Below, in pieces: positions 26,896-53,153 of a stretch of 56,326 nt of DNA (position 1 is its first letter; every line of letters begins with the position of its first letter). This DNA comes from a virus: the IMG/VR virus record IMGVR_UViG_3300018424_000027, positions 1 to 56,326 of that record. One strand, given 5' to 3'. The notes under the pieces are model-generated. The model did no database searches. It was given only the letters and a program-made list of their open reading frames with translations, and was not told where the DNA came from. The translations under genes were made by a program, and so were the position numbers.

Positions 26896-28312
26896 AAATT
26901 TCTCGCAGTACCTACTAGAAGAAGAGAGAGAAGTCTACTTTACCTTCGGACGTATGAACCCACCTACCATAGGACATGGTAAGGTGATGGATACTCTTGC
27001 GTCTAAGTCTGGTAAGTCAGATTACAAGGTGTACCTATCTCAGGTATCCAACCCTAAGAAAGATCCGTTGTCCTACTCAGATAAGATCAAACACGTGCGT
27101 AAGATGTTTCCAAAACATGCACGTCAAGTCATCATGGACAAGGACTGTCGCAATGTATTCGACGTTGCAAACAAACTTTACAATGCAGGTTACACCAAGG
27201 TCAACATGGTTGTGGGTGAAGATCGCATCCGTGAGTTTGAAGTTCTCCTGAACAAGTACAACGGTAAGAAGGCACGTCACGGATTCTACAACTTCAAGAG
27301 TATCAATGTGATCTCTGCAGGTGCACGTGATCCAGATGCGGCGGGTGTAGAAGGTATGTCTGCATCTAAGCAACGTGAGAACGCCTCTAAGAATGACTTC
27401 GTTACATTCTCTCAGGGTGTACCAAAAACAATGTCCAACAAGGACGCACGTAAACTATTCAATGATGTGCGTACTGGTATGGGTCTCAAAGAGACTACTG
27501 AATTCAAGAACCACATCTCACTAAAACCTGTTTCTGAAACAAGAGAACAGTACGTACAGGGGGAACTGTATGAGGTCGGTGACACAGTGGTTGTCAAAGA
27601 AAATGACGAACTGGTTACAGTCGCAGTGCTCGGAGCAAATTACGTTATCGTCGAACGCACAGATGGCACTCGACTACGCAAATGGTTGGATGCAGTCGAA
27701 CTCGTTGAAAAGGGAACAGGAAAAAAACAAGACCCAGATATCAAAGATAGAGAGGGAACTCAACCTGCCCGATATCATGCAGGACTAAAGAAGTCCACCA
27801 AGGCAAAGAGAGACGCACACTTCAAGAAGCACGGTAAGAAAGACGATGACGATTCGTCTGCGTACAAACCTGCGCCTGGCGATAAGAGTACAGAGACCAA
27901 ACCTTCGAAGTACACGAAGGCGTTCAAGGATATGTACAACGAGGGTGTAGAGATCTCGTTTGAGATGTGTCTCAATGCAGAGACTACCCCTCAGATGTTA
28001 AAGAGATGGATGTCTAAAACTATACAGAAAAAACAGTATAGTCAAGTTGCAGACTACATCAAGAAACAGATGGAGAAGGACAACAACAGACACTCCCCTG
28101 AGTACTATGCTTCAGAGTTGGTTCGTAAACACGGACTCAAGTTAGATGTCAGAGCACTGGGTAAGATGGTTAAAAACGAAGAGACCGATCCAGTTAAGAA
28201 TGCACGTGCAGACATCGAACGTGAGAAAGAAGCAGATAAGATCAAACACGACAAGTTATTAGATCGTGCACGACTCGCTCGTGCTAAACAAAAAAATAGG
28301 GCAACCAAATGA
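26885..28312 (+). CDS. TxGH nucleotidylyltransferase-like protein with DUF5872-like domain
   Basis: A 475-residue multidomain protein. The N terminus IKNFSQYLLE|E fits a capsid-targeting peptide. Residues 17-170 form a nucleotidylyltransferase fold: FGRMNPPTIGH (21-31, T/HxGH), NMVVGEDR (107-114) and GMSASKQREN (157-166, the ISxTxxR-like motif). Residues about 225-275 look SH3/KOW-like. Residues 296-352 match a small DUF5872-like module (RDAHFKKHGKKDDDDSSAYK...PGD...PSKYTKAFKDMY). A GTG start at 26885 with AGGG upstream overlaps the previous gene. NMN/NaMN or CTP-type substrates are possible. Confidence 0.78.
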   Translation: MPIKNFSQYLLEEEREVYFTFGRMNPPTIGHGKVMDTLASKSGKSDYKVYLSQVSNPKKDPLSYSDKIKHVRKMFPKHARQVIMDKDCRNVFDVANKLYNAGYTKVNMVVGEDRIREFEVLLNKYNGKKARHGFYNFKSINVISAGARDPDAAGVEGMSASKQRENASKNDFVTFSQGVPKTMSNKDARKLFNDVRTGMGLKETTEFKNHISLKPVSETREQYVQGELYEVGDTVVVKENDELVTVAVLGANYVIVERTDGTRLRKWLDAVELVEKGTGKKQDPDIKDREGTQPARYHAGLKKSTKAKRDAHFKKHGKKDDDDSSAYKPAPGDKSTETKPSKYTKAFKDMYNEGVEISFEMCLNAETTPQMLKRWMSKTIQKKQYSQVADYIKKQMEKDNNRHSPEYYASELVRKHGLKLDVRALGKMVKNEETDPVKNARADIEREKEADKIKHDKLLDRARLARAKQKNRATK

Positions 28313-36270: not shown

Positions 36271-38250
36271 ATGAAAATTGATAAGAAAAAGGATAAGTTG
36301 TTAGAGGACTATGCAGTAGGGATGCTGAAAGACTTCTACCTGAATGATTATGAAGACTCCCCTCAAGAGGGATACGCACGTGCCGCAAAGGCATGGTCAA
36401 CATATAAGGGAGAGATGGATGAAGATCTTGCTCAACGGTTATATGATTATGTTAGTAATAAGTGGTTTATGTACGCTTCTCCTGTACTTTCTAACGCACC
36501 TAATGGACACGGTAAAGGGAAAGGAATGCCTATCTCGTGTTTCCTCACTTATGTGCCAGATACTCTGGAGGGTCTCATTGGTCACAGTTCTGAGTTACGT
36601 TGGCTTAGTGTTTATGGTGGCGGTGTTGGGGGTCACTGGAGTGACGTGCGAACCGTGTCAGACATTGCACCAGGCCCTATCCCGTTCCTACACACTGTAG
36701 ATGCAGACATGATTGCTTACCGTCAAGGTAAGACTCGTAAGGGTTCTTATGCCGCTTACATGAACGTGTCGCATCCAGACATTATCGAATTTTTAAACAT
36801 CCGTATTCCTACGGGTGACGTGCAACGTAAAGCGTTAAACCTACACAACGCAATCAATGTCAGTAATGAGTTCATGGAAGCAGTCATGACTAACTCTGAC
36901 TTTGATCTGCGTGATCCAAAAGATGGAACTGTGAAGGAGACGATCAAGGCACGTAAACTATGGGAACGTATTTTGGAAGTGAGGTTCCGTACAGGTGAAC
37001 CCTATCTGAACTTCATCGACACTGCAAATGAAATGCTACCCCAACCACTAAAGGATCTTGGTCTACAAATTCATGGATCCAATTTATGTAATGAGATACA
37101 CTTACCGACAAGTGAAGACCGGACTGCGGTATGTTGTTTATCTAGTTTGAATCTGGAGTATTATGATGAATGGAAAAACACTACTATTGTGCGGGATATT
37201 GTGCGTATGCTTGATAATGTTCTCGAATACTTTATCGAAAACGCACCAGACACTATCAGCCGTGCAAAGTACTCTGCAGAACGTGAACGATCAATTGGAC
37301 TCGGAGCAATGGGATTCCACAGTCTCCTCCAAAAAAATGGAGTCGCATGGGAATCAAGAAAGGCAAGAGAAATCAACGATGTTGTGTTTGCCCATATTAA
37401 CGGAGAAGCTGTCGCAGAAACTCAACGACTTGCAGAAGAGAGGGGGGAATATCCTGACGGTATCGGATCCGGACGGAGAAACGCACATCTCATTGCAATT
37501 GCACCAAACGCCTCAAGCGGAGTCATTCTGTCTACAAGTCCAAGCATCGAACCCCTGAAGGCATGTGCGTACACACACCGTACACGATCAGGATCGTTCC
37601 TTGTAAAGAACAAATACTTGGAAGAGTTACTGGAGAGTAAGGGTGAGAACAACGAGTCCAACTGGACTAGTATTATCACAAATAAAGGTAGTGTTCAGCA
37701 CTTACCTTTCCTAACAGAGGGTGAAAAAAGTATATATAAGACTGCACAGGAATTAGATCAGAACTGGGTTATCCAACATGCAGCAGATCGTCAGAAGTAC
37801 ATCTGTCAAGGACAGTCAGTCAATATCTTTTTCCCATCTGGTGCAGAGAAATCTTATGTTAACAAGGTGCATTTGAAGGCATGGAAAGAAGGACTGAAAG
37901 GTCTATACTATCTCCGTACCGAAGCAAAGTCACGTGCAGAAAACGTATCTGAGAAAGTAGAACGTGTTGCACTGCAGGATGATACTCGTAGCATTGTCTA
38001 TAGTAAAAAGAACTGCCCTTGGTGTGCTCTTGCAATGGAAGAACTCAAGTTACGAGGTATTCTATTTGACAAGATAGATCTCGAAGAGATCGGTAAGACC
38101 GCTGCAGAAGTAACGGGACGTAAGGTCAAAACTGTACCCCAAATCTATATTCAGGGGAACTACATAGGTGGATACCAAGAACTAATGGAATGGTTAGATA
38201 CACCGGCAGAAAATGACGAAGAAGACGAATGCAAAGCTTGCGAGGGATAA
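36271..38250 (+). CDS. nrdA: Class I ribonucleotide reductase alpha subunit fused to glutaredoxin
   Basis: A 659-residue protein. The catalytic barrel has MPISCFLTYVPD, HGSNLCNEIHLPTS, AVCCLSSLNLEYY, GAMGFHSLLQ and the radical-path GLKGLYYLRTEAKSRAENV (about 547-565). There is no N-terminal ATP cone, so allosteric control by dATP is probably absent. Residues about 572-645 are a glutaredoxin domain (YSKKNCPWC, TVPQIYI, GGYQEL). The chain ends ECKACEG (C654, C657), like the cysteine tail that reduces the active site. It makes dNDPs with NrdB directly downstream. The fused reductant is notable. Confidence 0.95.
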   Translation: MKIDKKKDKLLEDYAVGMLKDFYLNDYEDSPQEGYARAAKAWSTYKGEMDEDLAQRLYDYVSNKWFMYASPVLSNAPNGHGKGKGMPISCFLTYVPDTLEGLIGHSSELRWLSVYGGGVGGHWSDVRTVSDIAPGPIPFLHTVDADMIAYRQGKTRKGSYAAYMNVSHPDIIEFLNIRIPTGDVQRKALNLHNAINVSNEFMEAVMTNSDFDLRDPKDGTVKETIKARKLWERILEVRFRTGEPYLNFIDTANEMLPQPLKDLGLQIHGSNLCNEIHLPTSEDRTAVCCLSSLNLEYYDEWKNTTIVRDIVRMLDNVLEYFIENAPDTISRAKYSAERERSIGLGAMGFHSLLQKNGVAWESRKAREINDVVFAHINGEAVAETQRLAEERGEYPDGIGSGRRNAHLIAIAPNASSGVILSTSPSIEPLKACAYTHRTRSGSFLVKNKYLEELLESKGENNESNWTSIITNKGSVQHLPFLTEGEKSIYKTAQELDQNWVIQHAADRQKYICQGQSVNIFFPSGAEKSYVNKVHLKAWKEGLKGLYYLRTEAKSRAENVSEKVERVALQDDTRSIVYSKKNCPWCALAMEELKLRGILFDKIDLEEIGKTAAEVTGRKVKTVPQIYIQGNYIGGYQELMEWLDTPAENDEEDECKACEG

Positions 38251-39258
38251 ATGGCATTATTAGAATTTAGTACAACTTACAAACCGTTCAAGTATCCATG
38301 GGCGGTAGAACTATCCAAGAAGCACGAAGAGGTGCACTGGATTGAAGACGAAGCAGAACTGTCCGAAGACGTACAGGACTGGAAAACCAAACTAACTGAA
38401 TCAGAGAAAGAGTTCATTACTCATATCTTGAGACTGTTTACTCAGTCAGACGTACAGGTGGGTGAGAACTATCACGAACTCTTGATTCCAAAATTCAAGA
38501 ACAATGAAGTCCGTAACATGTTGTCATCGTTTGCGGGTCGAGAAGCAGTACACCAACGTGCGTATGCACTGTTGAATGATACTCTGGGTCTACCCGACGA
38601 AGAGTACCACAAGTTTCTTGAGTTTAAAGAGATGGCAGACAAGGTTGACTTCATGAAAGAAGGTGACTCAAACACTCACACCGGACTTGCACTTGCACTC
38701 GCACAATCAGTATTCAACGAGGGTATGAGTCTGTTCAGTTCTTTTGTGATGTTACTCAACTTCCAACGCTTCGGTAAGATGAAGGGTATGGGTACAATCG
38801 TTGAGTGGTCGATACGTGATGAGTCTCTACACGTGCAGGGTAACGCAAAACTGTTCCGTGAGTTCTGTGATGAACATCCACGTATCGTAAACGATGAACT
38901 CAAGTCTAAGATCTATGAGATGGCAAAGACTGCTGTTGCACTAGAAGACAAGTTCATTCAACTTGCATTTAGAGGTAATGATGTCGAGGGTCTAACGAAG
39001 GAAGAAGTGAAACAATACATCCGTCACATTGCGGATAGACGTTTACTTCAACTAGGATTGAAACCGAAGTTTCGACAAAAGGACAATCCACTACCTTGGT
39101 TAGACTGGGTATTGAATGGTGCGTCTCATGACAACTTCTTTGAAAAACGAGTCACTGAGTATTCTGTAAACGGAATGGAAGGTGACTGGGGATGGGAAGA
39201 AGAAGGTGCTCCCGCACCAGTCATGTGTGAGTTAGACGGAACGGGTTGTGCAGCGTGA
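38251..39258 (+). CDS. nrdB: Class Ia ribonucleotide reductase beta subunit
   Basis: A 335-residue protein with the diiron ligand set: D in FTQSDVQVGENY, E and H in REAVHQRAY, E in FNEGMSLF, E and H in RDESLHVQG. A Tyr sits four residues after the first His (EAVHQRAY), the position of the E. coli radical tyrosine Y122, so it is a tyrosyl-radical class Ia type. It starts at the nrdA stop, ensuring equal synthesis. The C-terminal tail (ACELDGTGCAA-like) should contact NrdA. Confidence 0.95.
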   Translation: MALLEFSTTYKPFKYPWAVELSKKHEEVHWIEDEAELSEDVQDWKTKLTESEKEFITHILRLFTQSDVQVGENYHELLIPKFKNNEVRNMLSSFAGREAVHQRAYALLNDTLGLPDEEYHKFLEFKEMADKVDFMKEGDSNTHTGLALALAQSVFNEGMSLFSSFVMLLNFQRFGKMKGMGTIVEWSIRDESLHVQGNAKLFREFCDEHPRIVNDELKSKIYEMAKTAVALEDKFIQLAFRGNDVEGLTKEEVKQYIRHIADRRLLQLGLKPKFRQKDNPLPWLDWVLNGASHDNFFEKRVTEYSVNGMEGDWGWEEEGAPAPVMCELDGTGCAA

Positions 39259-39404
39259 CAGATGCTTTCAAGTATGTTAACGACTGTCCGATCTGTGACA
39301 TAGAGACTACTATTATTGTTCATGAAGATGACGATCCGCCAGCGCATTGTCCGATGTGCGGATCTGATTCAGACCTTGTTCAGTTGAAAGATTCCGATGA
39401 ATGA
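39255..39404 (+). CDS. Small C4 zinc-ribbon protein
   Basis: A 49-residue protein from GTG 39255, overlapping the nrdB stop by 4 bases. CPIC (11-14) and CPMCG (32-36) form a C-x2-C...C-x2-C zinc ribbon with acidic loops between. Tight coupling to nrdB suggests co-expression. No specific family is recognised. Confidence 0.68.
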   Translation: MTDAFKYVNDCPICDIETTIIVHEDDDPPAHCPMCGSDSDLVQLKDSDE

Positions 39405-39531
39405 CAAAGAAATAGAAGAGTGGGTAAACAAGAACCCTATGTTGGCAAACTGTGTTTACCCTGTAATTGCAATCGCAAGTATTCTGTTGTTACAGTACAC
39501 CTGTATCCAAATAATTAACTACCTAACATAA
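39397..39531 (+). CDS. Small single-pass membrane protein
   Basis: A 44-residue protein, MNDKEIEEWVNKNPML then ANCVYPVIAIASILLLQY as a membrane helix. It overlaps the zinc-ribbon gene by 8 bases and ends 2 bases before panD. Too short for family assignment. Confidence 0.6.
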   Translation: MNDKEIEEWVNKNPMLANCVYPVIAIASILLLQYTCIQIINYLT

Positions 39532-39533
39532 TT

Positions 39534-39875
39534 ATGCACTTATCTACATATTTAAAATCCAAAATACACCGTGCCACTGTCACCGATACACAGTTAGACT
39601 ACGAAGGATCTGTTGCGATAGATCCTGATCTCATGTCAGCAGCAAATATCAAACTATGGGAACAGATCGATATCTACAATGAGACTAACGGACAGAGGTG
39701 GACTACCTACGTTATCGAAGGTGGTAGGGGTTCCCGTGAAATCTCCGTAAGGGGGCCAGGCGCTCGACTGTGTATGCCAGGCGACATAGTTCACATGTGC
39801 ACGTATCTTACGACACGATTCAGGTGTCCCAAACCTACTCAAATTAAGGTTGACGAAAACAACGAGGTAATCTAA
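39534..39875 (+). CDS. panD: Aspartate 1-decarboxylase (pyruvoyl-dependent)
   Basis: A 113-residue protein aligning along its length with PanD: KSKIHRATVTDTQLDYEGSVAID, where G25-S26 is the self-cleavage site that makes the pyruvoyl group. K10 and H12 are at the E. coli Lys9 and His11 positions, and TNGQRWTTYVI, RGSREISV and GDIV follow. It converts aspartate to beta-alanine for pantothenate and coenzyme A. It is slightly shorter than E. coli PanD (126). No other pantothenate gene is visible. It follows the nrd operon, so it may boost host CoA supply during infection. An unusual phage metabolic gene. Confidence 0.92.
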   Translation: MHLSTYLKSKIHRATVTDTQLDYEGSVAIDPDLMSAANIKLWEQIDIYNETNGQRWTTYVIEGGRGSREISVRGPGARLCMPGDIVHMCTYLTTRFRCPKPTQIKVDENNEVI

Positions 39876-39889
39876 AGCTACATAGTAAT

Positions 39890-40300
39890 ATGTGGCATTA
39901 TCAGAACGTACCATTCGAACCTACAGAAGAAGAACTGTCTCAGTGGCAGGGGTTCGTCTACATGATTACCGAAAGGTCATCTAACAAGAAGTATATCGGT
40001 AAAAAATTCTTCTGGAGTCGCAGGAGACTCCCGCCATTGAAAGGAAAGACCCGTAAGCGTATTAAAATATCAGAAAGTGATTGGAAGACCTACTACGGAT
40101 CCTCAGAGGATCTGAAGACCCTTGTAGAGGAAAGAGGTGTTGACAACTACTACCGTGAGATCCTGAGACTATGCAAGACCAAGGGAGAGTGTTCTTACTA
40201 TGAGGCAAAGGAACAGTTTGAACGGGATGTCCTATTAAAAGATGATTACTATAACGAGTTCATTGGGTGCAAAATCCACTCGAAACATATAGCAAAATGA
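39890..40300 (+). CDS. GIY-YIG-type endonuclease (SegE-like)
   Basis: A 136-residue protein. GFVYMITERSSNKKYIGKKFF provides the GIY-YIG pair (VYM ... YIG), with Arg-rich RRRLPPLKGKTRKRIK, WKTYYGSS and a downstream Glu (EAKEQFE). This resembles phage putative homing-type nucleases such as the SegE group. It could be mobile, but no intron or intein is seen beside it. It is followed by the early promoter at 40335. Confidence 0.78.
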   Translation: MWHYQNVPFEPTEEELSQWQGFVYMITERSSNKKYIGKKFFWSRRRLPPLKGKTRKRIKISESDWKTYYGSSEDLKTLVEERGVDNYYREILRLCKTKGECSYYEAKEQFERDVLLKDDYYNEFIGCKIHSKHIAK

Positions 40301-42929: not shown

Positions 42930-43604
42930 ATGACCAAACCACAGATTTTAAAGATCGATCATCTCCGGACGATTGAACCTCTTACTATGTCTCAGGAAGT
43001 TGTTTTCAAAGCATGGGACGAAGGTAACCATATAGTTATGTCTGGTACTGCAGGATCAGGTAAGACCTTTCTTGCAATGTACCTTGCACTAGAAGATGCC
43101 CTTGACAAGGGCAATACTTTCGAGAACGTTACCATTGTCAGATCCATCGTACCTACACGAGAGATCGGTTTTCTGCCAGGCACACTCGAAGAAAAGATAG
43201 ATGCATACACGGGGCCATATCGACAGATATGTACTGAGTTGTTTGAAGACCGTGGTGCATACGAGAAACTATCGAAGTGCGGAGTGATTGATTTCATATC
43301 CACATCACACATTCGAGGAACGACGATCAGTGACTCAATCATCATCGTAGATGAGATGCAGAACTTGACATTCCACGAACTAGATAGTATAATTACTCGT
43401 GTTGGACATAATTGTAGAATCATCTTCTGTGGTGATTACTACCAGTCTGACTTTACTAAGACGCAGGATAAAGCAGGAGTAAATCAGTTTACTGCGATAT
43501 TAGAATTGATGAAAAAATTTACGATGGTAGAATTCACTTGGGCAGACATTGTGAGGTCTGACTTTGTACGTGACTATATCATGACCAAAGAAATGATGAG
43601 ATGA
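42930..43604 (+). CDS. phoH: PhoH-like ATPase
   Basis: A 224-residue P-loop protein: MSGTAGSGKTFLA (Walker A 39-46), PTREIGFLPGTLEEKIDAY, STSHIRGTTI and SIIIVDEMQN (Walker B 136-145). These are the PhoH/RhlB-type motifs very common in marine phages. ATG 42930 is preferred over longer in-frame starts. The role is uncertain, probably an RNA-associated ATPase or helicase, often linked to phosphate stress. The stop overlaps the next start as ATGA. Confidence 0.92.
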   Translation: MTKPQILKIDHLRTIEPLTMSQEVVFKAWDEGNHIVMSGTAGSGKTFLAMYLALEDALDKGNTFENVTIVRSIVPTREIGFLPGTLEEKIDAYTGPYRQICTELFEDRGAYEKLSKCGVIDFISTSHIRGTTISDSIIIVDEMQNLTFHELDSIITRVGHNCRIIFCGDYYQSDFTKTQDKAGVNQFTAILELMKKFTMVEFTWADIVRSDFVRDYIMTKEMMR

Positions 43605-44716
43605 ATTATATACAGGTATTCCACTTAAAGAACTTCGATGAGTTTAGAGAAGAGTTTTTAGATACGGTTACTATTAGTAGTAACTGGCCTGCACAATCTG
43701 ATTACGATATCAGCGACTCTCCGTCTCAGTTTCGTCCAGAAAGAAAACCTTACTATAAGCTTGTTAAGAAAAGGATCCACCCTATACTGAAAGACTACTG
43801 TAGGACTTGGGGATGCGAGAATTACAATATCGAATCTATGTGGTTCCATGCATATAATGAGGGTGGTGACTATCCATCACATACTCACACAGGTGCAAAT
43901 TTAACTGGAGTGATTACGGTTGATCTGAATAGACCCGAAGAAGCGACTCAGATATTTGGTAGTGGTCTTCAGTTGCCAGTAGGTAGTGTGGTACTGTTCC
44001 CTTCTATGTTACCCCACAGATCACCTGTTGTTACGGGTAGAAAAATTATCATAGGATTTAATTGGAATATGCACGGAGAAAATTCTAATCACATTCCAAT
44101 TCAATCCTTACCAAAAGAAACCTACATGGAGAAAAAGGCGAAGGCGAACATCCATCCTCAGATGGAGAAGATTCAATCTCTCTATGATAACTGGGGATCC
44201 TACGAACAGAACGTCAAACAATTCTACAGTGCCAGTCATGTAAAGATGGCAGAGTTGGTTAACAGGTTGGATCTCAACCTTGACGAACTTGATGTTGCTG
44301 AGATAGGACAGGGTAGTGGTCTACTTGCAAAAGAACTTTATCCGGATGGTGTTGCACCTTGGGATGCGTATGACATCTCCGAAACCATGTGTAATCAATC
44401 ACGTCCGTTCTATAAGAGTGTGACTCAACACGACATATGTTATAGTGAACTACCTAAGACCTATGATGTAATTTTCATGTGTGGTGTATTTGCATTTGGT
44501 TTGTTGACCGCTGAATGTGTACCTGCAATTGTAAAGAGTCTGAAACCTAATGGATATCTTATTGCATCGTTTCCTGCTATGGAAAATTTCTGGGCAAAAA
44601 CTGGATGGGACAAAGTAGATTGTTTTAAAGAAGTAGAGTGCATAGAACCCTACCCTTCTTGGAAGACTGTGGGTAGAACCAAGTACAACGAAATAAAGAT
44701 GTTTCAACTAAAATGA
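43601..44716 (+). CDS. Fusion of 2OG-Fe(II) oxygenase and SAM methyltransferase
   Basis: A 371-residue two-domain protein. The N-terminal half (1-160) is a TIGR02466-like oxygenase: MWFHAYNEGGDYPSHTHTGAN (H94, H96), FPSMLPHRSPV (H139) and RKIIIGFN (R147). The C-terminal half (about 225-371) is a methyltransferase: DVAEIGQGSGLLAKEL (motif I), YDISETMC, YDVIFMCGVF and LKPNGYLIASFP. A stand-alone oxygenase paralogue is at 50920. Hydroxylation and methylation of one substrate, perhaps a sugar or peptide, is inferred. It is tied to phoH and to the radical SAM gene by ATGA overlaps. Confidence 0.82.
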   Translation: MNYIQVFHLKNFDEFREEFLDTVTISSNWPAQSDYDISDSPSQFRPERKPYYKLVKKRIHPILKDYCRTWGCENYNIESMWFHAYNEGGDYPSHTHTGANLTGVITVDLNRPEEATQIFGSGLQLPVGSVVLFPSMLPHRSPVVTGRKIIIGFNWNMHGENSNHIPIQSLPKETYMEKKAKANIHPQMEKIQSLYDNWGSYEQNVKQFYSASHVKMAELVNRLDLNLDELDVAEIGQGSGLLAKELYPDGVAPWDAYDISETMCNQSRPFYKSVTQHDICYSELPKTYDVIFMCGVFAFGLLTAECVPAIVKSLKPNGYLIASFPAMENFWAKTGWDKVDCFKEVECIEPYPSWKTVGRTKYNEIKMFQLK

Positions 44717-46422
44717 ATCATGCTCTTATCCTAACTGGAGCAGATGTGATGTATCCAGTAGGATACACTGGAATAGAAGTTGCGGTTCGTGGTCATGGTG
44801 CTCACAGAATTGCATCTCATATAAGGAAGACAAGAGACTGGGACGTAGAAGTCTTAGACTTCTTCAGTGCATGGGGTGTGCAAGAACTCAAAGACTTTGT
44901 AGACAGTCGAGTGAGTAGTCACACCAAATGGATCGGGTTTAGCACTTTCTTTACGTACTCAATACATGGTGAAGGTGAAATCGTTCAGAAACAAAACGAG
45001 ATCCTGTCTTATATTAAGAACAAGTATCCCCACATCAAGACCGTGGTGGGTGCTAACAAACTGGTCAATGTGATACGACACAAAAACGTTGACTACTATT
45101 GTATCGGTAATGGTGAACATGGGATTGTTGCACTGTGCGATTATCTTGCAGGTGATGCACCTGAACCTAAAGTAAAAAGGGTGTTCAATCCTTTTCAATC
45201 AATAGATGGATCACTGCATCGTGAGTATACAATCATTGACTGTTTTAGAGACTATCCTGCCTATCCGCATAGGAAGGCAAAGACTTCATACGAAGAGAGG
45301 GACTTTATAAGATCGAATGAAGTGTTGACCACAGAACTGTCAAGAGGGTGTATGTTTAAATGTTCGTTCTGCGACTACGCTCCACTGGGAGTCAAGGGTG
45401 ATCACACAAGAGATGCGGAAGACTTCGAAGAAGAACTCAGGGAGAACTATGACAAGTGGGGAGTAACTCGTTACCTATTGGCGGATGAGACATGCAACGA
45501 TAGATCAGAAAAAATTGAGAAGTTTGCAAACGCAACTAAACGACTAGACTTTCAACCACAGTTTCATGGATTCATTCGAGGAGACTTGTTTGTAAAACGA
45601 TCCAGAGAAGACTGGGACAACATGATCACCATGGGATTCACAAGTCATTCAATGGGTCTTGAGTCTTTCAATCACGCTTCTGCTAAATCAATACGGAAAG
45701 GTATGTCGCCTCTGATCATACAAGAAGGTCTTCTACAAGGAGAGGAATACTTCCGTAAGAACAAGTTGCCAGGCAACCACTATAACGGAACCCTGTCAAT
45801 GATAGCAGGATTACCTCACGAGACGTTTGAGACTTTGGATAACACTGCAGATTGGTTGAATAGATATTGGAAGAATCAGGTAACTATACATTCGTTATAC
45901 ATATCACAGCATGTAGGTCACGATGGGATTGACGCTGTATCAGAGATAGAATCGAATCCTAAAAAGTGGGGATATAGTTTCAGATCAAAAAATATAATTG
46001 ATCGGGCAACCATAGGATTCTATGATTTCGTGTGGAGAAAACATGGAGTCTTACCAGACAATGTTGACATACAATCACTGGTAGACAACATAAGTGATAA
46101 AGCTAAGAAAAAACTATTCGAAGAGGACTCAAAAAATCGTCAAGACAAGACTTTCCAACAAGTATGGGTTCATCCTAGTAAAGACTATGACGAAGTTGAC
46201 ATGATTACTTGGTGTGCAGAGTTTACTTCTGACAGGATCAAACTAAGAAAGAAACCAGAGAGTCAGAGTGGTTGGCATATGGGTTGGTACAGTCAACTAG
46301 GATACGATTTGAATCGTGTATACTCAGGCGACCCACCTGTACTAAATCATTCGGACGTATCTACTTACGGTAGCATAATTGCTAAATATAAGAAACAAAA
46401 ACTCAATTATAGGAACATATAA
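44713..46422 (+). CDS. B12-binding-type radical SAM protein
   Basis: A 569-residue protein. The N-terminal 1-150 resembles a cobalamin-binding Rossmann domain (AVRGHGAHRIASHIRKTRDW, IGFSTFF, TVVGANKL), without the DxHxxG base-off motif. The radical SAM cluster is ELSRGCMFKCSFCDYAP (C213, C217, C220). Later segments include FHGFIRGDLF and GLESFNHASAKSIRKGM, typical of this class. It may methylate or rearrange an unactivated carbon in the same pathway as the oxygenase-methyltransferase before it. The C-terminal 150 residues are unassigned. Confidence 0.82.
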   Translation: MNHALILTGADVMYPVGYTGIEVAVRGHGAHRIASHIRKTRDWDVEVLDFFSAWGVQELKDFVDSRVSSHTKWIGFSTFFTYSIHGEGEIVQKQNEILSYIKNKYPHIKTVVGANKLVNVIRHKNVDYYCIGNGEHGIVALCDYLAGDAPEPKVKRVFNPFQSIDGSLHREYTIIDCFRDYPAYPHRKAKTSYEERDFIRSNEVLTTELSRGCMFKCSFCDYAPLGVKGDHTRDAEDFEEELRENYDKWGVTRYLLADETCNDRSEKIEKFANATKRLDFQPQFHGFIRGDLFVKRSREDWDNMITMGFTSHSMGLESFNHASAKSIRKGMSPLIIQEGLLQGEEYFRKNKLPGNHYNGTLSMIAGLPHETFETLDNTADWLNRYWKNQVTIHSLYISQHVGHDGIDAVSEIESNPKKWGYSFRSKNIIDRATIGFYDFVWRKHGVLPDNVDIQSLVDNISDKAKKKLFEEDSKNRQDKTFQQVWVHPSKDYDEVDMITWCAEFTSDRIKLRKKPESQSGWHMGWYSQLGYDLNRVYSGDPPVLNHSDVSTYGSIIAKYKKQKLNYRNI

Positions 46423-46424
46423 AA

Positions 46425-46874
46425 ATGAACAGAGAAGCAGTATTTGAACAGCTCAAGATAGATGAGGGGGTTGTATATGAAGTATACAAAGATCATCTTG
46501 GATATGAAACTTTCGGAGTCGGGCACTTGGTGCTTGAATCGGATCCTGAACACGGAGAACCAGTTGGAACGCCCGTATCAGAAGATAGAGTCAGAGAGTG
46601 TTTCGAACTCGACCTTGACCTTGCAATATCAGAGTGCAATGCTTTATTCGGAGATTCAACGTTTGAAGGATGGCCCGATGAAGTCCAGCAGGTATTGGTC
46701 AACATGATGTTTAACATGGGACGCACCCGTCTGGGTGGTTTCAAGAATTTCCGTGCCGCTCTCGAAGAGGGTGACTGGAAAAGGGCTGCCGTGGAAGGAC
46801 GTGATTCACGCTGGCACAGGCAGGTAACTAACCGTGCAGAACGGTTAATGGTTAGATTGGAGAACGTTAGTTAA
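46425..46874 (+). CDS. T4-type lysozyme (glycoside hydrolase 24)
   Basis: A 149-residue protein. LKIDEGVVYEVYKDHLGYETFGVGHLV carries the E14-D23-T29 catalytic triad of T4 lysozyme; VQQVLVNMMFNMGRTRLGGFKNF and the WH.Q..NRA.RL C terminus also match. It cleaves peptidoglycan for lysis. There is no signal peptide, so it would need a holin; the XhlA-like (30839) or EF-hand membrane protein (51471) are candidates. It is embedded in the modification cluster, three bases after the radical SAM gene. Confidence 0.92.
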   Translation: MNREAVFEQLKIDEGVVYEVYKDHLGYETFGVGHLVLESDPEHGEPVGTPVSEDRVRECFELDLDLAISECNALFGDSTFEGWPDEVQQVLVNMMFNMGRTRLGGFKNFRAALEEGDWKRAAVEGRDSRWHRQVTNRAERLMVRLENVS

Positions 46875-46885
46875 CGTCTAAATAT

Positions 46886-47056
46886 ATGGCGAAATACACC
46901 CGTCACGATTCAAGAAACAAGAAACGTAACAGTCATAAGAATCGAACCAAGTTTGATTCTGGGTATAAAATGAGAGGATCTGATTACAATAGATCCCGTG
47001 ATAAAAGGATTGTCAATGAGAAATGCGATATTTCAATACATGGTACTCAACCCTAA
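46886..47056 (+). CDS. Small basic hypothetical protein
   Basis: A 56-residue protein, MAKYTRHDSRNKKRNSHKNR then TKFDSGYKMRGSDYNRSRDK, with a high Lys/Arg/Asn content. It overlaps the next gene by 41 bases. No strong ribosome site. Similar short basic proteins occur in T4-like phages, so it is plausible. Confidence 0.55.
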   Translation: MAKYTRHDSRNKKRNSHKNRTKFDSGYKMRGSDYNRSRDKRIVNEKCDISIHGTQP

Positions 47057-47840
47057 TGTAGACGAAAGGGGAGAGATTGAAGGAAGACAGAGAAGTCAAG
47101 TCTATCGTGAGGTAGCAGATTTATCTCGACGTTCCTTTCTAGAGTATGCCGATATCATTGATGCAGAGTACTTCTACTCAGATGAGCAAGTGTACACTGC
47201 AGGACATGACCATGCAAACGCTCTTTTGTTTGAGTGTTTGAGGGTTATCTATGATCCTATGTTTGACCAGTATGACAAGGTGTTATTTGCCGATACCGAC
47301 ATTGTAGTAAACACCGAAGAGAACATCTTTGATCTGTGTGAAGACGGAGATGTCTTTGGTGTACTTGAGAGTGATATCGTCACATCGAATGGTGGTGGGT
47401 ATAACTCTTGGGACTACAAGGAAAAGACATACCAAGACTTTGTTGCAAAGTTCTCTATGCACGACATTCCTATTGTCCCATCACTACCACCTAGTAGACC
47501 ATCTAAGTTAACTGTCCTGAATACAGGTATTGTCGTATGGACACGTGAGGCACGTCTACGTGCACGTGAGGTATTCATGGATTGGACAGAATGGTTCTAC
47601 GCAAAACCAGAGTTCCATATGTCGGTAATGAATGACCAACCGTACATCTCTGGACAGTTGGTCAAACATGACTTCGATTTAAACACCGAAGCACTGGATC
47701 AGACATGGAACGACTCTCCCCATTATGCCACTGAAGATGAGTTCTTTGAGAAGGCAAAGATGTGTCACTACACTGGTGGTGGTTGGAAAATCGATATGTT
47801 ACGCCATGCCGAAGAAGGTAGGTTTAAGATACTTGCTTAG
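47016..47840 (+). CDS. GT-A fold glycosyltransferase-like protein
   Basis: A 274-residue protein: HANALLFECLRVIYDPMFDQYDKVLFADTDIVV, with DTD at 93-95, then TVLNTGIVVWTREA, MNDQPYISGQ and YTGGGWK. This is the GT8-like order of a metal-dependent nucleotide-sugar transferase. ATG 47016 is chosen with AAGGA upstream. The end overlaps the convergent minus-strand gene by 17 bases. The acceptor is unknown. Confidence 0.78.
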   Translation: MRNAIFQYMVLNPNVDERGEIEGRQRSQVYREVADLSRRSFLEYADIIDAEYFYSDEQVYTAGHDHANALLFECLRVIYDPMFDQYDKVLFADTDIVVNTEENIFDLCEDGDVFGVLESDIVTSNGGGYNSWDYKEKTYQDFVAKFSMHDIPIVPSLPPSRPSKLTVLNTGIVVWTREARLRAREVFMDWTEWFYAKPEFHMSVMNDQPYISGQLVKHDFDLNTEALDQTWNDSPHYATEDEFFEKAKMCHYTGGGWKIDMLRHAEEGRFKILA

Positions 47841-48072
47841 TCACCTGTTTTATCCTACACACCATTCTCTCACCATCAATAACGAGAACCACCTTTCCGT
47901 TCACACGAAGTTTTCCAAGAGGACGCATTGACATCTTGGTGTCTTTTGTGATAGAATGGAAACAGTTAGTTACGATTTTTAATCGTTTATCGTCCGAGGT
48001 CTTTGCTTTGATCTCGACTGCATGGGAGGGTACTGCTATAAGTAATGCCAGTATGGCTACTATTTTTTTCAT
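47824..48072 (-). CDS. Exported small protein, the only supported minus-strand gene
   Basis: An 82-residue protein. The signal peptide KKIVAILALLIAVPSHA (cleavage before VEIK) is followed by a compact mature part with two Cys (TNCFHS, MVCRIK) and strands RLKIVTN, GKVVLVIDGERMV. AAGGAGAG is eight bases before the ATG on the minus strand. A minus-strand TATAAT (48153-48148) and a TGTGACAC direct repeat (48125-48143) lie upstream. It converges on the glycosyltransferase. Possible superinfection-exclusion or inhibitor protein; family unknown. Confidence 0.75.
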   Translation of the reverse strand: MKKIVAILALLIAVPSHAVEIKAKTSDDKRLKIVTNCFHSITKDTKMSMRPLGKLRVNGKVVLVIDGERMVCRIKQVTKQVS

Positions 48073-48124
48073 GGGATCTCTCCTTGGCGTTTCACAACGC
48101 TACTATCGTCATCTCGACGGGGAA

Positions 48125-48143
48125 TGTGACACTTTTGTGACAC
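48125..48143. repeat. TGTGACAC direct repeat, operator candidate
   Basis: TGTGACAC at 48125-48132 and again at 48136-48143, one helical turn apart, lies between the divergent minus-strand exported gene and the plus-strand early promoter at 48186. It sits just downstream of the minus-strand -10, where a repressor could bind. Confidence 0.55.
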
Positions 48144-48185
48144 ATAATTATATATAAAAAATGTATACTTTTTTTCAAAAAACCC

Positions 48186-48226
48186 TTGACACTTGTTTCA
48201 AAAACATGTATAATTAACATGTAATT
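48186..48226 (+). promoter_or_regulatory. Early-type promoter with partial start-site palindrome
   Basis: TTGACA (48186-48191), a 17-base spacer and consensus TATAAT (48209-48214). AATTAACATGTAATT (48212-48226) keeps the GTAATT arm and has a central CATG. Upstream CTTTTTTTCAAAAAACCC matches the region before 40335. The leader TGTAATTGAGAAAAGTGAGG is shared with 40335. Confidence 0.85.
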
Positions 48227-48245
48227 GAGAAAAGTGAGGTTAATT

Positions 48246-48632
48246 ATGAAAAATTTGATATTAGAAGATTATAGATGTCCCGACTATGAGTCAGGTCTCT
48301 ACAAGGGTATTCCAATGGAATACAGAAACCACCCTAAAGTCCAAGAACTAATGAGGACTAGATTGTTCACTGTCAGGTACAGAGGAAACAGTAAGGTTGG
48401 TTACGACAGACCTAAAGACTTTGTTCACAAGGATAAGGCAGATACCTTTGCCATCTACCCGTATTCAAACTATGAAGAGTTTGAGACTAGTAACGATGTT
48501 ACTGGAATAACCCCTCCTGCAAAATACCCGATTGGTCAGTACCATGAATGGGTTGCTTACAGAGAGGAACACACCAAAGCAATCATAGAGATTGCAGAGA
48601 AACTTGATGCAGGATTGACGTTATGTGCTTAG
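48246..48632 (+). CDS. Hypothetical early protein
   Basis: A 128-residue protein behind the promoter at 48186, ATG 48246 with GTGAGG upstream. It has MKNLILEDYRCPDYESGLYKG, VQELMRTRLFTVRYRG and a helical C terminus. No characterised family is recognised. It overlaps the next gene by 10 bases. Confidence 0.78.
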   Translation: MKNLILEDYRCPDYESGLYKGIPMEYRNHPKVQELMRTRLFTVRYRGNSKVGYDRPKDFVHKDKADTFAIYPYSNYEEFETSNDVTGITPPAKYPIGQYHEWVAYREEHTKAIIEIAEKLDAGLTLCA

Positions 48633-48835
48633 ATCAGTATTTTGAAATAATCGAAGAAGAGTCAAAGACTCATTCACTGGAAGGTAACGGTACGAAGAAC
48701 TATGCGTACTGTTATGGAATTTTGAAGACCCATCTAGAGTGGGCACTTGCAGGGGATGCACAGAAAGAGATTGTTCTGAAGAACATCTCTGACACCATTG
48801 CAGGTCATACTAAACAAATGGAGTTACCTATATGA
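48623..48835 (+). CDS. Hypothetical early protein
   Basis: A 70-residue helical protein: MCLDQYFEIIEEESKTHSLEGNG, YCYGILKTHLEWALAGDAQKE. It overlaps both neighbours. No family is recognised. Confidence 0.72.
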   Translation: MCLDQYFEIIEEESKTHSLEGNGTKNYAYCYGILKTHLEWALAGDAQKEIVLKNISDTIAGHTKQMELPI

Positions 48836-49407
48836 TGAAAGAAAAAGTAATACTTACGGACTGCGATGGTGTAGTCCTAGACTGGCAACACTCTTGGAGA
48901 GGGTGGATGCACAGACAAGGTTACAAGATCGTGGACGATAGTGTCTATGATGTTGCGGATCAATATGGGTTGGAAAGACCCTACGCAAAAAGACTTGTAA
49001 GGTTGTTCAACGAGAGTGCATGGATCAGAAAGATACCACCTCTCAGAGACTCAATGAAGTATATTAAGAAACTTCATGAAGAACATGGTTACGTGTTTCA
49101 CGCAATCACCAGTCTTAGTAATGACCAGTATGCACAATATCTAAGATGTAAGAACCTTGGAGAGTTATTCGGTAAGACTGCGTTCGAGAGATATGTGTAC
49201 CTAGATACTGGTGCAGACAAGGATGAGATCCTCAAAGAGTACGAAGGTACGGGTTGTTACTGGATCGAAGATAAAATTGAGAACGCAACAGTTGGTAAGA
49301 ACTTGGGTCTCAATTCACACTTGATTGCACACGACTTCAATACAGGAGATCACGGTATCCCTAGAGTCAAGAACTGGAAAGAACTCTACGAGATAATTAC
49401 TGGATAA
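48832..49407 (+). CDS. HAD-family phosphatase (5'(3')-deoxyribonucleotidase-like)
   Basis: A 191-residue protein. VILTDCDGVVLDW carries the DxDG nucleophile motif of the HAD superfamily. ITSLSNDQYAQYLRCKNLGEL is the motif II region, and YWIEDKIENA has the acidic motif IV (IEDK). The size and order resemble 5'-nucleotidases/NagD-like phosphatases. It could dephosphorylate a nucleotide or sugar phosphate. ATG 48832 or 48835. A late-promoter-like element overlaps its stop. Confidence 0.78.
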   Translation: MMKEKVILTDCDGVVLDWQHSWRGWMHRQGYKIVDDSVYDVADQYGLERPYAKRLVRLFNESAWIRKIPPLRDSMKYIKKLHEEHGYVFHAITSLSNDQYAQYLRCKNLGELFGKTAFERYVYLDTGADKDEILKEYEGTGCYWIEDKIENATVGKNLGLNSHLIAHDFNTGDHGIPRVKNWKELYEIITG

Positions 49408-49410
49408 ATA
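49403..49410 (+). promoter_or_regulatory. T4-type late promoter variant
   Basis: GATAAATA overlaps the HAD gene stop and is 25 bases before ATG 49436. It suggests late expression of the carbamoyltransferase and the genes after it. Confidence 0.55.
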
Positions 49411-49435
49411 ACTTCACTAACTAAGTGGAGTTTTT

Positions 49436-50923
49436 ATGAGGTACGTTGGGTTTAGTGAATACTATCACGATGCAGCTTTATCTATTGTCAATTCGGACGG
49501 TACGATAGAGTTTGCCTCTCATGCAGAGAGATTTACTAAGAAGAAAAATGATCCGTTGATTCCAGAAGATCTCTGGGATTATACTACTAATGATGATCAC
49601 TTCTCATTCTACGAAAACGTAGAGTGGAAGAAGACCTATAGAAAGGATCAAACTAAGAATACCCTACACACAGGCAATTCTATTGCCGCACACGAACAGA
49701 TCCCTGTCTATGATAGTATCTATTATGATGCCAGTTATGAACATCATAAGAGTCATTGTGCATCCGCATTCTTTACCCGTCCATGGAAAGACCGTGATAC
49801 CACTGTCATGGTGTCTATTGATGGTGTAGGTGAGTTTCAGACTGCAACCATCTATGACCACAACTTCAATCTAATCAAAGAATGGCACTACCCTAAATCA
49901 GTAGGGTTGGTGTACACTACCGCAACACGTCTATTAGGTTTACGTCCACTTGAAGATGAATATGTTGTTATGGGACTATCCTCTTATGGAGAACCGCCTG
50001 AAGAGATATGGGGTAAATTAGTCAACTGGTGGGAACACACAGGTGACATTAATCCTCGTATTGAAAAGAAGCAGAAGATTGACTTTCCCGATAAAGGTAA
50101 TCCGGAGTATGAGAACCTTCGTTCCATGTTAAAAGTCTTCGTTACGAAATACAGTAAAGAAGACTTTGCGGCAGGGGTACAAAAGTTCGCAGAATATGCA
50201 ATTATGCAGATCATGAAAACTGCATCACTGCACGGTAAGAAACTGGTCTACTCTGGTGGATGTGCACAAAATGTTGTTATCAATTCAAGACTCTTCGAAT
50301 TGTTCGAAGACGTTCACATTGCAATCTCACCTACAGACGCAGGATCTTCTCTGGGTGCTGCCGCACTGTCTTGGTCGGAGTATACTCCTCAAGATCAATT
50401 GATCTGGACACCTTATCTTGGTTACAACATAGAAAGAGAAGTAAACCCACGTCATGTAGTAGATCATCTCTTAGAACACAAAGTATGCGGTCTGGCGAAC
50501 GGTAGGGCAGAGTTCGGGCCACGTGCACTGGGTAATAGATCTCTGATCGCAGATGTACGTTATGATGTACAGGACACTGTGAATGAGATCAAACGCAGAC
50601 AAAAATATCGTCCCTTTGCACCTGCAGTTCTAGAAGAATATGCGTATAAATACTTCGAGGGGCCAATGAACGAGTACATGCAGTACACGTCAAAGGCACT
50701 TCATGACTATGATTCGGTTACTCACGTAGATGGAACTGCACGAGTACAAATAGTCCGTCAGGACTGTGAATCGGTCTTTAGGAAGGTAATTGAGGAATAC
50801 TACGAACGTACAGGGGTTCCGATGTTACTAAATACCAGTTTGAACATTCGTGGAAGACCTATGGTCAACGACGAACATGATGCTGAATTGTTTGAAAATA
50901 AATACGGTGTTAAAGTATTTTGA
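49436..50923 (+). CDS. Carbamoyltransferase (NodU/CmcH family)
   Basis: A 495-residue protein with the ASKHA-type N-terminal domain (VGFSEYYHDAALSIVNSDG, HAERFTKKKND, HHKSHCASAF, VSIDGVGE) and the family C terminus (LVYSGGCAQNVVINSRL, SPTDAGSSLGAAALSW, GRAEFGPRALGNRSLIAD, YRPFAPAVLEE, LNTSLNIRGRPMV). It transfers a carbamoyl group from carbamoyl phosphate onto a hydroxyl, usually of a sugar. It is somewhat short (about 570 is common). Together with glycosyltransferases and oxygenases it suggests a decorated glycan. Confidence 0.9.
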   Translation: MRYVGFSEYYHDAALSIVNSDGTIEFASHAERFTKKKNDPLIPEDLWDYTTNDDHFSFYENVEWKKTYRKDQTKNTLHTGNSIAAHEQIPVYDSIYYDASYEHHKSHCASAFFTRPWKDRDTTVMVSIDGVGEFQTATIYDHNFNLIKEWHYPKSVGLVYTTATRLLGLRPLEDEYVVMGLSSYGEPPEEIWGKLVNWWEHTGDINPRIEKKQKIDFPDKGNPEYENLRSMLKVFVTKYSKEDFAAGVQKFAEYAIMQIMKTASLHGKKLVYSGGCAQNVVINSRLFELFEDVHIAISPTDAGSSLGAAALSWSEYTPQDQLIWTPYLGYNIEREVNPRHVVDHLLEHKVCGLANGRAEFGPRALGNRSLIADVRYDVQDTVNEIKRRQKYRPFAPAVLEEYAYKYFEGPMNEYMQYTSKALHDYDSVTHVDGTARVQIVRQDCESVFRKVIEEYYERTGVPMLLNTSLNIRGRPMVNDEHDAELFENKYGVKVF

Positions 50924-51441
50924 ATCAGTTTATTAAACGTTATACATTTCCACCAAGAGAGTTCTTTGCATTCAAGGAACATCTGATAGAGGAAATGATG
51001 AAGGTGAAGTCAGAGCATGATTGTTCATTTGCGAACATGCAATTCTCTGATTACAAACTTCCATGGAAGGAAGGTATTAATTATAGACCACCGTATTGGG
51101 ATGAGGCTATTAAATTAATACAACCTGCCCTTACGAACTATGCTAACCAATGGCAATGTTCTAGGATTAAGGTTGAAAGTATGTGGTTTGCCGAGTACAA
51201 CGAGGGGAACAACTTTGAGTGGCATACACATGAGGGAACGAATTTGTCTGCAGTGTTGCATGTTCATGGGTTACCAGAGAACTCAACACAGTTGATGGGG
51301 TTTGCAGACATGGTTTTGCACATAGGTGACTTGGTGGTTTTTCCATCAATGTTACCACACAGAGGGCCAAACTGCCAAGGACACAAAATTGTTATAGGAT
51401 TCAATTTGAATATGTCAGGCAGTCTTTTACATAATGAATAG
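50920..51441 (+). CDS. 2OG-Fe(II) oxygenase (TIGR02466-like)
   Basis: A 173-residue protein: MWFAEYNEGNNFEWHTHEGTN (H102, H104), LVVFPSMLPHRGPN (H147) and HKIVIGFNLN, where the usual Arg of the 2OG-binding strand is Lys (K156). It is a close paralogue of the N-terminal domain of 43601-44716. A TTG start overlaps the carbamoyltransferase stop (TTGA). Probably hydroxylates the same kind of substrate. Confidence 0.8.
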   Translation: MNQFIKRYTFPPREFFAFKEHLIEEMMKVKSEHDCSFANMQFSDYKLPWKEGINYRPPYWDEAIKLIQPALTNYANQWQCSRIKVESMWFAEYNEGNNFEWHTHEGTNLSAVLHVHGLPENSTQLMGFADMVLHIGDLVVFPSMLPHRGPNCQGHKIVIGFNLNMSGSLLHNE

Positions 51442-51470
51442 TATAATCAAAACTACAAAGGATATTCAAT

Positions 51471-51800
51471 ATGTCAGAAGAAGAGATCAAGGCAGCGGGA
51501 CACCACCCTGCTGACACAAACGGAGACGGTAAAGTCTCTAAAGAAGAAGAGGCGATGTACTTGGAGTTTAAACGTAAAGAACTCGAAGACGCAGATGCAA
51601 TGCGTGACGCACAGCGTTCCATGGCATGGTTCTCGCTGTGGGGTATGTTATTGTATCCCGTACTCGTGGTGGGTGCAAATTTAACAGGTCTAGAGAAAGC
51701 GGCAGACATACTGGGTGACATGGCAGGAGTTTACTTCATTGCAGTTGCAGGTATCGTAGCAGCGTTCTTTGGTGCTCAAGCATGGTCAGGTAAAAAGTAG
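51471..51800 (+). CDS. EF-hand membrane protein
   Basis: A 109-residue protein. DTNGDGKVSKEEE (15-27) is a full Ca-binding EF-hand loop. Two membrane segments follow (SLWGMLLYPVLVVGANL; VYFIAVAGIVAAFFGAQAW). AAGGA-type purines lie upstream. Similar EF-hand/two-helix proteins occur in marine T4-like phages and have been proposed as holins, but this is not shown. Calcium control of a membrane protein would be unusual. Confidence 0.78.
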   Translation: MSEEEIKAAGHHPADTNGDGKVSKEEEAMYLEFKRKELEDADAMRDAQRSMAWFSLWGMLLYPVLVVGANLTGLEKAADILGDMAGVYFIAVAGIVAAFFGAQAWSGKK

Positions 51801-51810
51801 GTAAATAATC

Positions 51811-52281
51811 ATGGTAGAGATCGGAGCGGCATTGTCGCTTGCCGGATCTGCATTTAACATGATTAAAAAGGCGGTAGAGTCAGGTCGAGAAGCAGAAGAC
51901 CTATATAACTATTTCGCCCGATTCTTTGACGCAAAAGAGCAGATATCTGAGGAAGCGATAAAAGGTGGAACACACTCAAGAGTAAAGAAGTTGTTTGCCG
52001 GTAACAGTGTCGAAGCAGAAGCACTACAAGTGACTGCTGCTCGACGTAAAATTGTACAAATGGAACAGGAACTCAAGGAGTTCTTAATCTATTCCGGACA
52101 ATCAGACTTCTACGATGAGATGATGAAAGAGAGACGTGTGATACGTCAACGGAGGATCCAAGCGGCAAAAGAAGCTGCGGATCGTAAAGCGGCATTTGAA
52201 GATGGTATTGCAATACTGGCGGCGTTGATAGTTTCTGCGTTTATTATCGGAGGAACCGTAGTGTTGATAACCAGTGTATAA
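51811..52281 (+). CDS. Helical protein with C-terminal membrane segment
   Basis: A 156-residue protein. An amphipathic N terminus (EIGAALSLAGSAFNMIKKAV) is followed by a long charged helical region and IAILAALIVSAFIIGGTVVLI near the C terminus as a membrane anchor. It follows the EF-hand protein by 10 bases. Seen in marine T4-like phages to my recollection; function unknown. Confidence 0.75.
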   Translation: MVEIGAALSLAGSAFNMIKKAVESGREAEDLYNYFARFFDAKEQISEEAIKGGTHSRVKKLFAGNSVEAEALQVTAARRKIVQMEQELKEFLIYSGQSDFYDEMMKERRVIRQRRIQAAKEAADRKAAFEDGIAILAALIVSAFIIGGTVVLITSV

Positions 52282-52289
52282 GGTGATGA

Positions 52290-53153
52290 ATGGAATATGT
52301 AACTTGGAGAGGTACGCCTGGTGTAGGTGACTTCATGTGGGCACTTAACTGTGTCCATAACTATTGTTATGAATACAAGAAGAAAGTAGTACTGGAGTTT
52401 CACTGGGAACACGACGAGCATCACCTACACCACTTCGAAGATCCGGAAACAATCATAGAACGATTGGAGTACATGCACAATTTCTATCATAGAAAAGATG
52501 ATGTTCAAGTGAAGCATGTATATGGACAAACTACACGATACAGTGATTGGAAATTTGAAGATGACTTCGTAAGAGAGGAGGATGGAACCTTACGTATAGC
52601 AGCAATCAATCGTGGTCATAAAAACAGATATTTTTTTCAGTCAGGGGTATACGACGATAGAGAGGGTGGTAACGCACCATTCCCCGACTGGATCTTTCGA
52701 GATGTCCCTAGAGTAATAGACAAAAGAAAGGTAGTAGTCTGGAGACCTACCTTCAATGCAGAACAACCAAGAACTTGGAAAAGGGTCTTGACACATGAGC
52801 AATGGGATGATATAATAAGCTTAATGCGTCAGGCAGGATTATATACCGTTGAACTGACATATAGAACACCTATATCAGAAGCGTTCTATCACATATCAAC
52901 GTGTAGACAAGTAGTGTGTTATGATGGTATGTGGCATTACATTGCCCGTAACTTTCAAACACCGATGGTAATTTTGAGTACAGAAGGTATTACTAATTAC
53001 CATACACCACACTGCGTTAAGACTGACGCAGATGAGGATAACCCACGTAATATATATTACTGGATGAACAACCTATCTGAGATGTTAGGTTCAAGTAAAA
53101 AACGAGCAATAGAATATGAGCAAAGGTGTAGACAATTCTATCAAGATAGATAG
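52290..53153 (+). CDS. GT-B/heptosyltransferase-like glycosyltransferase
   Basis: A 287-residue protein: WRGTPGVGDFMWALNCVHNY at the start (as GT9: GDF/GDv...n), KVVVWRPTFNAEQPRTWKRVL and CYDGMWHYIARNFQTPMVIL in the C-terminal nucleotide-binding half. The layout matches family 9-type GT-B enzymes. AAGGTG upstream of ATG 52290. It overlaps the radical SAM gene by 38 bases, so the two are coupled. The acceptor is unknown. Confidence 0.72.
   Translation: MEYVTWRGTPGVGDFMWALNCVHNYCYEYKKKVVLEFHWEHDEHHLHHFEDPETIIERLEYMHNFYHRKDDVQVKHVYGQTTRYSDWKFEDDFVREEDGTLRIAAINRGHKNRYFFQSGVYDDREGGNAPFPDWIFRDVPRVIDKRKVVVWRPTFNAEQPRTWKRVLTHEQWDDIISLMRQAGLYTVELTYRTPISEAFYHISTCRQVVCYDGMWHYIARNFQTPMVILSTEGITNYHTPHCVKTDADEDNPRNIYYWMNNLSEMLGSSKKRAIEYEQRCRQFYQDR
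52788..52816 (+). promoter_or_regulatory. Candidate internal sigma70 promoter
   Basis: TTGACA (52788-52793) and TATAAT (52811-52816), both perfect and 17 bases apart, lie inside the glycosyltransferase gene, about 300 bases before the radical SAM gene. It may add transcription of the downstream genes or be chance. Confidence 0.4.

Follow-up and report, generated by a model that had tools for sequence, protein, structure and literature searches.

Marine T4-like phages encode a variant of the textbook aspartate decarboxylase PanD. The stretch analysed here in its full length of 56,326 nucleotides (the window) is an IMG/VR record of such a phage, and the PanD-family gene that it carries at 39534-39875 is confirmed. 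By its aligned residues, the window protein is a member of a phage-type, active-site-altered PanD group, which an earlier sequence-only reading of this DNA had missed. The preferred explanation, to which we assign a probability of about 0.4, is that this is a functional phage-type PanD whose beta-alanine more likely feeds phage acyl-transfer or DNA-modification enzymes than tops up host CoA.

Identity and predicted fold of the phage protein

The gene and its predicted processing site are as follows.

39534-39875, plus strand: panD, phage-type pyruvoyl-dependent aspartate decarboxylase (113 aa; PF02261, fold match, seven near-identical IMG/VR copies)
39606-39611, plus strand: codons of G25-S26, predicted self-cleavage site (aligns with E. 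coli G24-S25)

The frame begins with ATG and is open over 113 codons. Its product matches the Asp_decarbox family (PF02261) with an E-value of 2.4e-36 and 124.6 bits against a Pfam cut-off of 25 bits, residues 4-112 covering model positions 3-114 of 115, and it matches solved PanDs in phmmer searches (best E 2.7e-22). An AlphaFold model computed from an input of 30 homologues has a mean pLDDT of 96.3; the best 40 Foldseek matches of this model in the PDB (E ≤ 1.1e-4) are all aspartate decarboxylases, and its TM score to the E. coli PanD precursor is 0.95. The full-length family match and the predicted double-psi beta-barrel fold bear out the earlier claim that the protein resembles PanD along its whole length. 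A PHROG search with the protein returned no match, leaving it without a described phage family in that collection.

The window encodes proteins of the UvsX, DnaB, NrdA/B and PhoH families. A second contig (G001), 96-99% identical to it over 55 of 56 kb, adds T4 baseplate, tail tube and gp32 families. The same panD, at 99-100% protein identity, is present on seven further IMG/VR contigs and is therefore no accident of assembly.

Residues for activation and catalysis

Aligned to other PanDs, the window protein keeps K10, H12, Y23, G25-S26, R55, T58 and Y59. These include the Gly-Ser cleavage site and the activating threonine (E. coli G24-S25 and T57; here G25-S26 and T58) as well as the catalytic and substrate-contacting residues (E. 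coli K9, R54 and Y58; here K10, R55 and Y59), and the conservation of G25-S26, K10 and H12 proposed in the sequence-only reading holds. In the E. coli enzyme, R54 and K9 bind the substrate and the proton comes from Y58 (PMC3314653); among the residues probed around the active site, activation requires T57 and still occurs in N72A (PMC3975893). The set described as strictly conserved (E. coli H11, Y22, G73, A74, A75 and I86) is retained in part, as H12, Y23 and G74, with A74, A75 and I86 replaced by P, G and H. The same reading had let its case depend on key residues in a full alignment; there the core residues are intact, but the N72, A74-A75, I86 and F55 positions are replaced. Since fold, cleavage site and catalytic residues are all present, the replaced A74, A75 and I86 mark a variant inside the PanD family rather than a protein outside it.

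The protein is thus likely to be an active, self-cleaving decarboxylase. Its self-cleavage, activity, substrate and the destination of its product in the window phage are what we infer: the G25-S26 bond of the precursor would be cleaved autocatalytically to give the pyruvoyl cofactor from S26, and the mature enzyme would decarboxylate L-aspartate to beta-alanine, with R55 and K10 binding the carboxylates and Y59 giving the proton. R73 (for N72) and H87 (for I86) could change this activity. The near-identical panD copies examined differ by at most two synonymous changes and one non-synonymous change, a number too small for an estimate of within-species selection; between sister phage panD lineages dN/dS lies at 0.09-0.34, with the exception of one closely related group (L051-L055) in which non-synonymous differences exceed synonymous ones.

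A phage-type active-site variant

Two stretches of the window gene carry most of the altered positions.

39699-39701, plus strand: codon of W56 (E. coli F55), phage-type signature (W in 28 of 29 phage-type and 1 of 48 bacterial rows)
39750-39761, plus strand: codons of R73-G74-P75-G76 (E. coli N72-G73-A74-A75), altered active-site loop (alignment)

From E. coli to the window the changes are F55 to W56, N72 to R73, A74-A75 to P75-G76 and I86 to H87. In the comparison with 48 bacterial rows, mostly Proteobacteria with a few Actinomycetota, Bacillota and Bacteroidota, tryptophan occupies the F55 position in 28 of 29 phage-type rows and in a single bacterial one, and 26 of the 29 phage-type rows, but no bacterial row, have G or P at the A75 position. 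A75 has been described as strictly conserved in PanD (PMC3314653). Beyond this group signature the window lineage has N72 replaced by R, A74 by P and I86 by H, the first replacement being otherwise found only in the divergent locus L188; in the group of Achromobacter phage 2-1, R54 and N72 have both become H. The first viral panD scans used patterns that contained W55, a possible bias. Six PanDs found only through their ABC-GNAT neighbours (L196, L207, L210, L213, L221 and L256) nevertheless all have W55 and G75. Four IMG/VR loci with bacterial-type residues (L169, L174, L176 and L177) were treated as probable host DNA. One branch of the tree (bootstrap 85, SH-aLRT 78) has 22 of the 23 viral rows on one and the same side, and branches are long; a single phage PanD clade is plausible, with moderate support.

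The nrdAB-panD gene run

In the window, panD is the last gene of a tight run that begins with the genes for ribonucleotide reductase.

36271-38250, plus strand: nrdA, ribonucleotide reductase large subunit (phrog_84, E 2.3e-169)
38251-39258, plus strand: nrdB, ribonucleotide reductase small subunit (phrog_86, E 2.7e-95)
39246-39404, plus strand: small CxxC (zinc-ribbon-like) ORF (from its translation; 52 codons, overlaps nrdB)
39397-39531, plus strand: 44-aa ORF with one hydrophobic segment (from its translation)
39890-40300, plus strand: SegE-like GIY-YIG endonuclease gene, directly downstream of panD (PF19835, E 2.6e-37)

The position of panD behind the nrd genes, as proposed earlier, is upheld by the PHROG matches of nrdA and nrdB. 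The panD ATG lies two bases past the stop of the 44-aa ORF, and the run nrdA-nrdB-CxxC-TM-panD is likely to be co-transcribed. A homologue of the CxxC ORF occupies the same place at six panD loci, L036-L039 among them, and a SegE-like gene also lies 3' of panD in L036 and L039, marking a conserved gene order. The suggestion that panD be sought in related marine phages proved fruitful: besides other marine T4-like contigs, a second marine lineage (L034-L041), whose PanD is 54-55% identical to that of the window, retains the order nrdA-(GDSL gene)-nrdB-small gene-panD-segE, and in a third, distant lineage (L057, a 109-kb contig) panD likewise follows nrdA and nrdB.

Several other features of these records were noted in passing. 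The GDSL-lipase-like gene sits between nrdA and nrdB in L036 (4072-4860), and its window homologue lies far off at 9948-10712. The phrog_447 label 'NAD synthetase' for 39890-40300 looks wrong, the Pfam match being to the SegE GIY-YIG endonuclease. One stretch of the window (43601-54117) holds possible modification or glycan genes, namely a 2OG-Fe(II)/methyltransferase fusion (43601-44716), a B12-binding-type radical SAM protein (44713-46422), a Nol-like carbamoyltransferase (49436-50923) and a radical SAM/SPASM protein (53116-54117).

Linkage of panD to putative modification genes in other phages

The phage Jace encodes, in order, a ParB-like protein (gp85), an ABC-ATPase/GNAT fusion (gp86; phrog_11143), PanD (gp87) and a CoA-transferase-family-III-like protein (gp88). 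The 80 best viral ABC-GNAT loci include 79 with a ParB-like gene and 11 with panD, which always lies immediately downstream of the ABC-GNAT gene; the CoA-transferase-III-like gene accompanies all 11 of the loci with panD and none of the 69 without it. Against a background of about 60 panD loci recovered by three scans of IMG/VR (2.9 million contigs), the frequency of 11 in 80 far exceeds chance, also once near-duplicates are removed (L196, L198 and L199 counting as one). The four-gene module was seen at L195 (Jace gp85-88), L065, L196, L207, L210, L213, L221, L241 and L256, and also at L067, L180, L181 and L187. Its CoA-transferase-III-like protein, of about 220 aa, aligns only with the N-terminal part of PF02515. 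The domains of the ParB/ABC-GNAT module suggest that it modifies DNA.

A further association is found in marine T4-like phages (L042-L063), in which panD lies between gp45 and gp44, an ABC-GNAT gene follows just downstream in some, and several have a Mom-like gene between gp47 and gp46. The Mom-like gene occupies this interval in G005, L048, L049 and L060; the interval is missing from the window and from G001. G005 is the contig of the closest syntenic relative of the window and combines nrdAB-panD and the Mom-like gene in one genome. Searches of the window and G001 detect no gene of the Mom, ABC-GNAT, ParB or CoA-transferase-III kind, but gp44-47 and gp55 are missing from both records; because gp44-47 is the place of Mom in the relatives, its absence from the two is uninformative. 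It counts against a use of the product in modification that panD stands beside nrdAB or a DNA polymerase, away from the module, both in the window lineage and in the group of Achromobacter phage 2-1. The window gene is classed as a relative of the module PanDs and not as a module member.

Linkage of this kind in relatives suggests, for the phages concerned at least, a part in acyl transfer or nucleic-acid modification, and it is the reason for favoring such a use of the product: beta-alanine would pass to GNAT- or Mom-type phage acyl-transfer or DNA-modification enzymes, and in the clearest cases the CoA-transferase-III-like enzyme would make an acyl-CoA, for example beta-alanyl-CoA, for GNAT or Mom-like enzymes. 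A more specific scheme, in which beta-alanyl-CoA made by the CoA-transferase-III-like enzyme lets a ParB/ABC-guided GNAT or a Mom-like enzyme beta-alanylate a DNA base, and in which the window phage does likewise with a transferase encoded in the missing gp44-47 region, is doubtful as a whole. If use in modification is correct, phages have turned the textbook enzyme of vitamin-B5 synthesis to a new task, nucleic-acid modification, and a phage PanD should not automatically be counted as an auxiliary gene for CoA. Because PanD and the CoA-transferase-like protein are strictly paired behind ParB and ABC/GNAT, a DNA base carrying an acyl group of the beta-alanyl type is predicted, and Rhodococcus phage Jace is one sequenced isolate in which this prediction is testable now.

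Alternative roles for the product

The main and serious rival is that panD is an ordinary auxiliary metabolic gene, co-expressed with nrdAB, whose beta-alanine relieves a pantothenate/CoA limit of the host during infection; we regard it as possible, though short of probable. PanD is the source of beta-alanine for bacterial pantothenate (PMC3975893, PMC3314653), the window protein keeps the PanD core residues including the equivalents of R54 and K9, the tight run with nrdAB suits a metabolic role, and panD together with panC is carried by a conjugative plasmid. Against this, panB, sought in the same phages, had no match in 14 partial records, and panC had none over the cut-off in 16; the phage-type active-site changes are common to unrelated phages, and panD of the relatives is linked to ParB, ABC-GNAT, CoA-transferase-like or Mom genes. 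Of the sequence-only proposal that a phage PanD serves CoA or beta-alanine supply, the PanD part stands, and the supply of CoA or pantothenate gained no independent support.

Several candidates bearing on pantothenate genes were set aside. PanC-like neighbors gave weak PF02569 matches over short stretches below the cut-off, those in L060 and L055 being 140-aa cytidylyltransferase-like proteins by sequence motif; the window cytidyltransferase at 26861-28312 was not put forward as CoaD, its PF01467 match being marginal; and a human-gut scaffold with a panC-like ORF adjoining panD looks bacterial. Bacterial-type panD occurs on conjugative plasmids, namely E. coli pS103EC_A (L192, with panC) and Enterococcus faecium plasmids. 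Bacterial-looking panD records in phage collections (OR84xxxx, Acinetobacter phage MD-2021a and a Salmonella record) were excluded; OR844989, OR845373, OR846675, OR846810, OR848172 and similar unverified 'phage' records are likely bacterial host contamination.

Rather unlikely is a pyruvoyl decarboxylase with a shifted substrate, which would be a different small amino acid or an amino-acyl group that a nucleotide or DNA base already bears, in the manner of the decarboxylation steps known from some hypermodified phage DNAs. Near-invariant positions by the substrate are changed: A75 is G or P across the group, N72 and I86 are replaced in the window, and histidine stands for both R54 and N72 in the group of Achromobacter phage 2-1. 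DNA-metabolism genes adjoin panD in several lineages. The window protein, however, keeps R54, which contributes to aspartate specificity, and the active site of the enzyme is described as small (PMC3314653). The thymidylate synthase of the window is moreover ThyX (PF02511), giving no sign of hydroxymethyl-uracil chemistry; with ThyX present and no dNMP kinase among the window proteins scanned (part of the ORFs), thymidine hypermodification was rejected for this phage. A decayed or inactive PanD, retained for another role or by drift, is very improbable, for although more active-site positions are changed in the window lineage than in its sisters, the core residues are all intact, the frame is open, near-identical copies show at most one non-synonymous change, gene order is conserved in the 54-55% identical lineage, and E. 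coli N72A still activates (PMC3975893).

Comparison with known systems

Phage PanD is already known as an annotation, in Jace gp87 and in Achromobacter phage 2-1; no paper on its function was found in a literature search that was not complete, and neither the phage-type variation of the active site nor the pairing of this PanD with a CoA-transferase-like protein appears to be described there. Bacterial PanD (EC 4.1.1.11; E. coli 1ppy, M. tuberculosis 2c45) shares fold, length, cleavage motif and core residues with the window protein at about 44-48% identity, whereas the latter has W for F55, G for A75, R for N72 and H for I86, a shorter C-terminus and a phage-borne gene beside nrdAB. Rhodococcus/Gordonia phage Jace gp87 (NC_047974), annotated as aspartate decarboxylase, is 41% identical and shares W55 and G75; it differs in keeping N72 and in sitting within the ParB - ABC/GNAT - PanD - CoA-transferase-III-like module. 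The panD product of Achromobacter phage 2-1 (OQ974181) shares W55 and also has a changed 72-75 loop (HGPP, against RGPG in the window), but it has histidine in place of R54 and N72, and its gene adjoins a DNA polymerase in a genome that has a dNMP kinase. The uncharacterised marine T4-like L034-L041 loci of IMG/VR share the order nrdA-nrdB-small gene-panD-segE at 54-55% PanD identity and differ from the window in keeping N72, in the GDSL-family gene between nrdA and nrdB and, in G005, in the Mom-like gene between gp47 and gp46.
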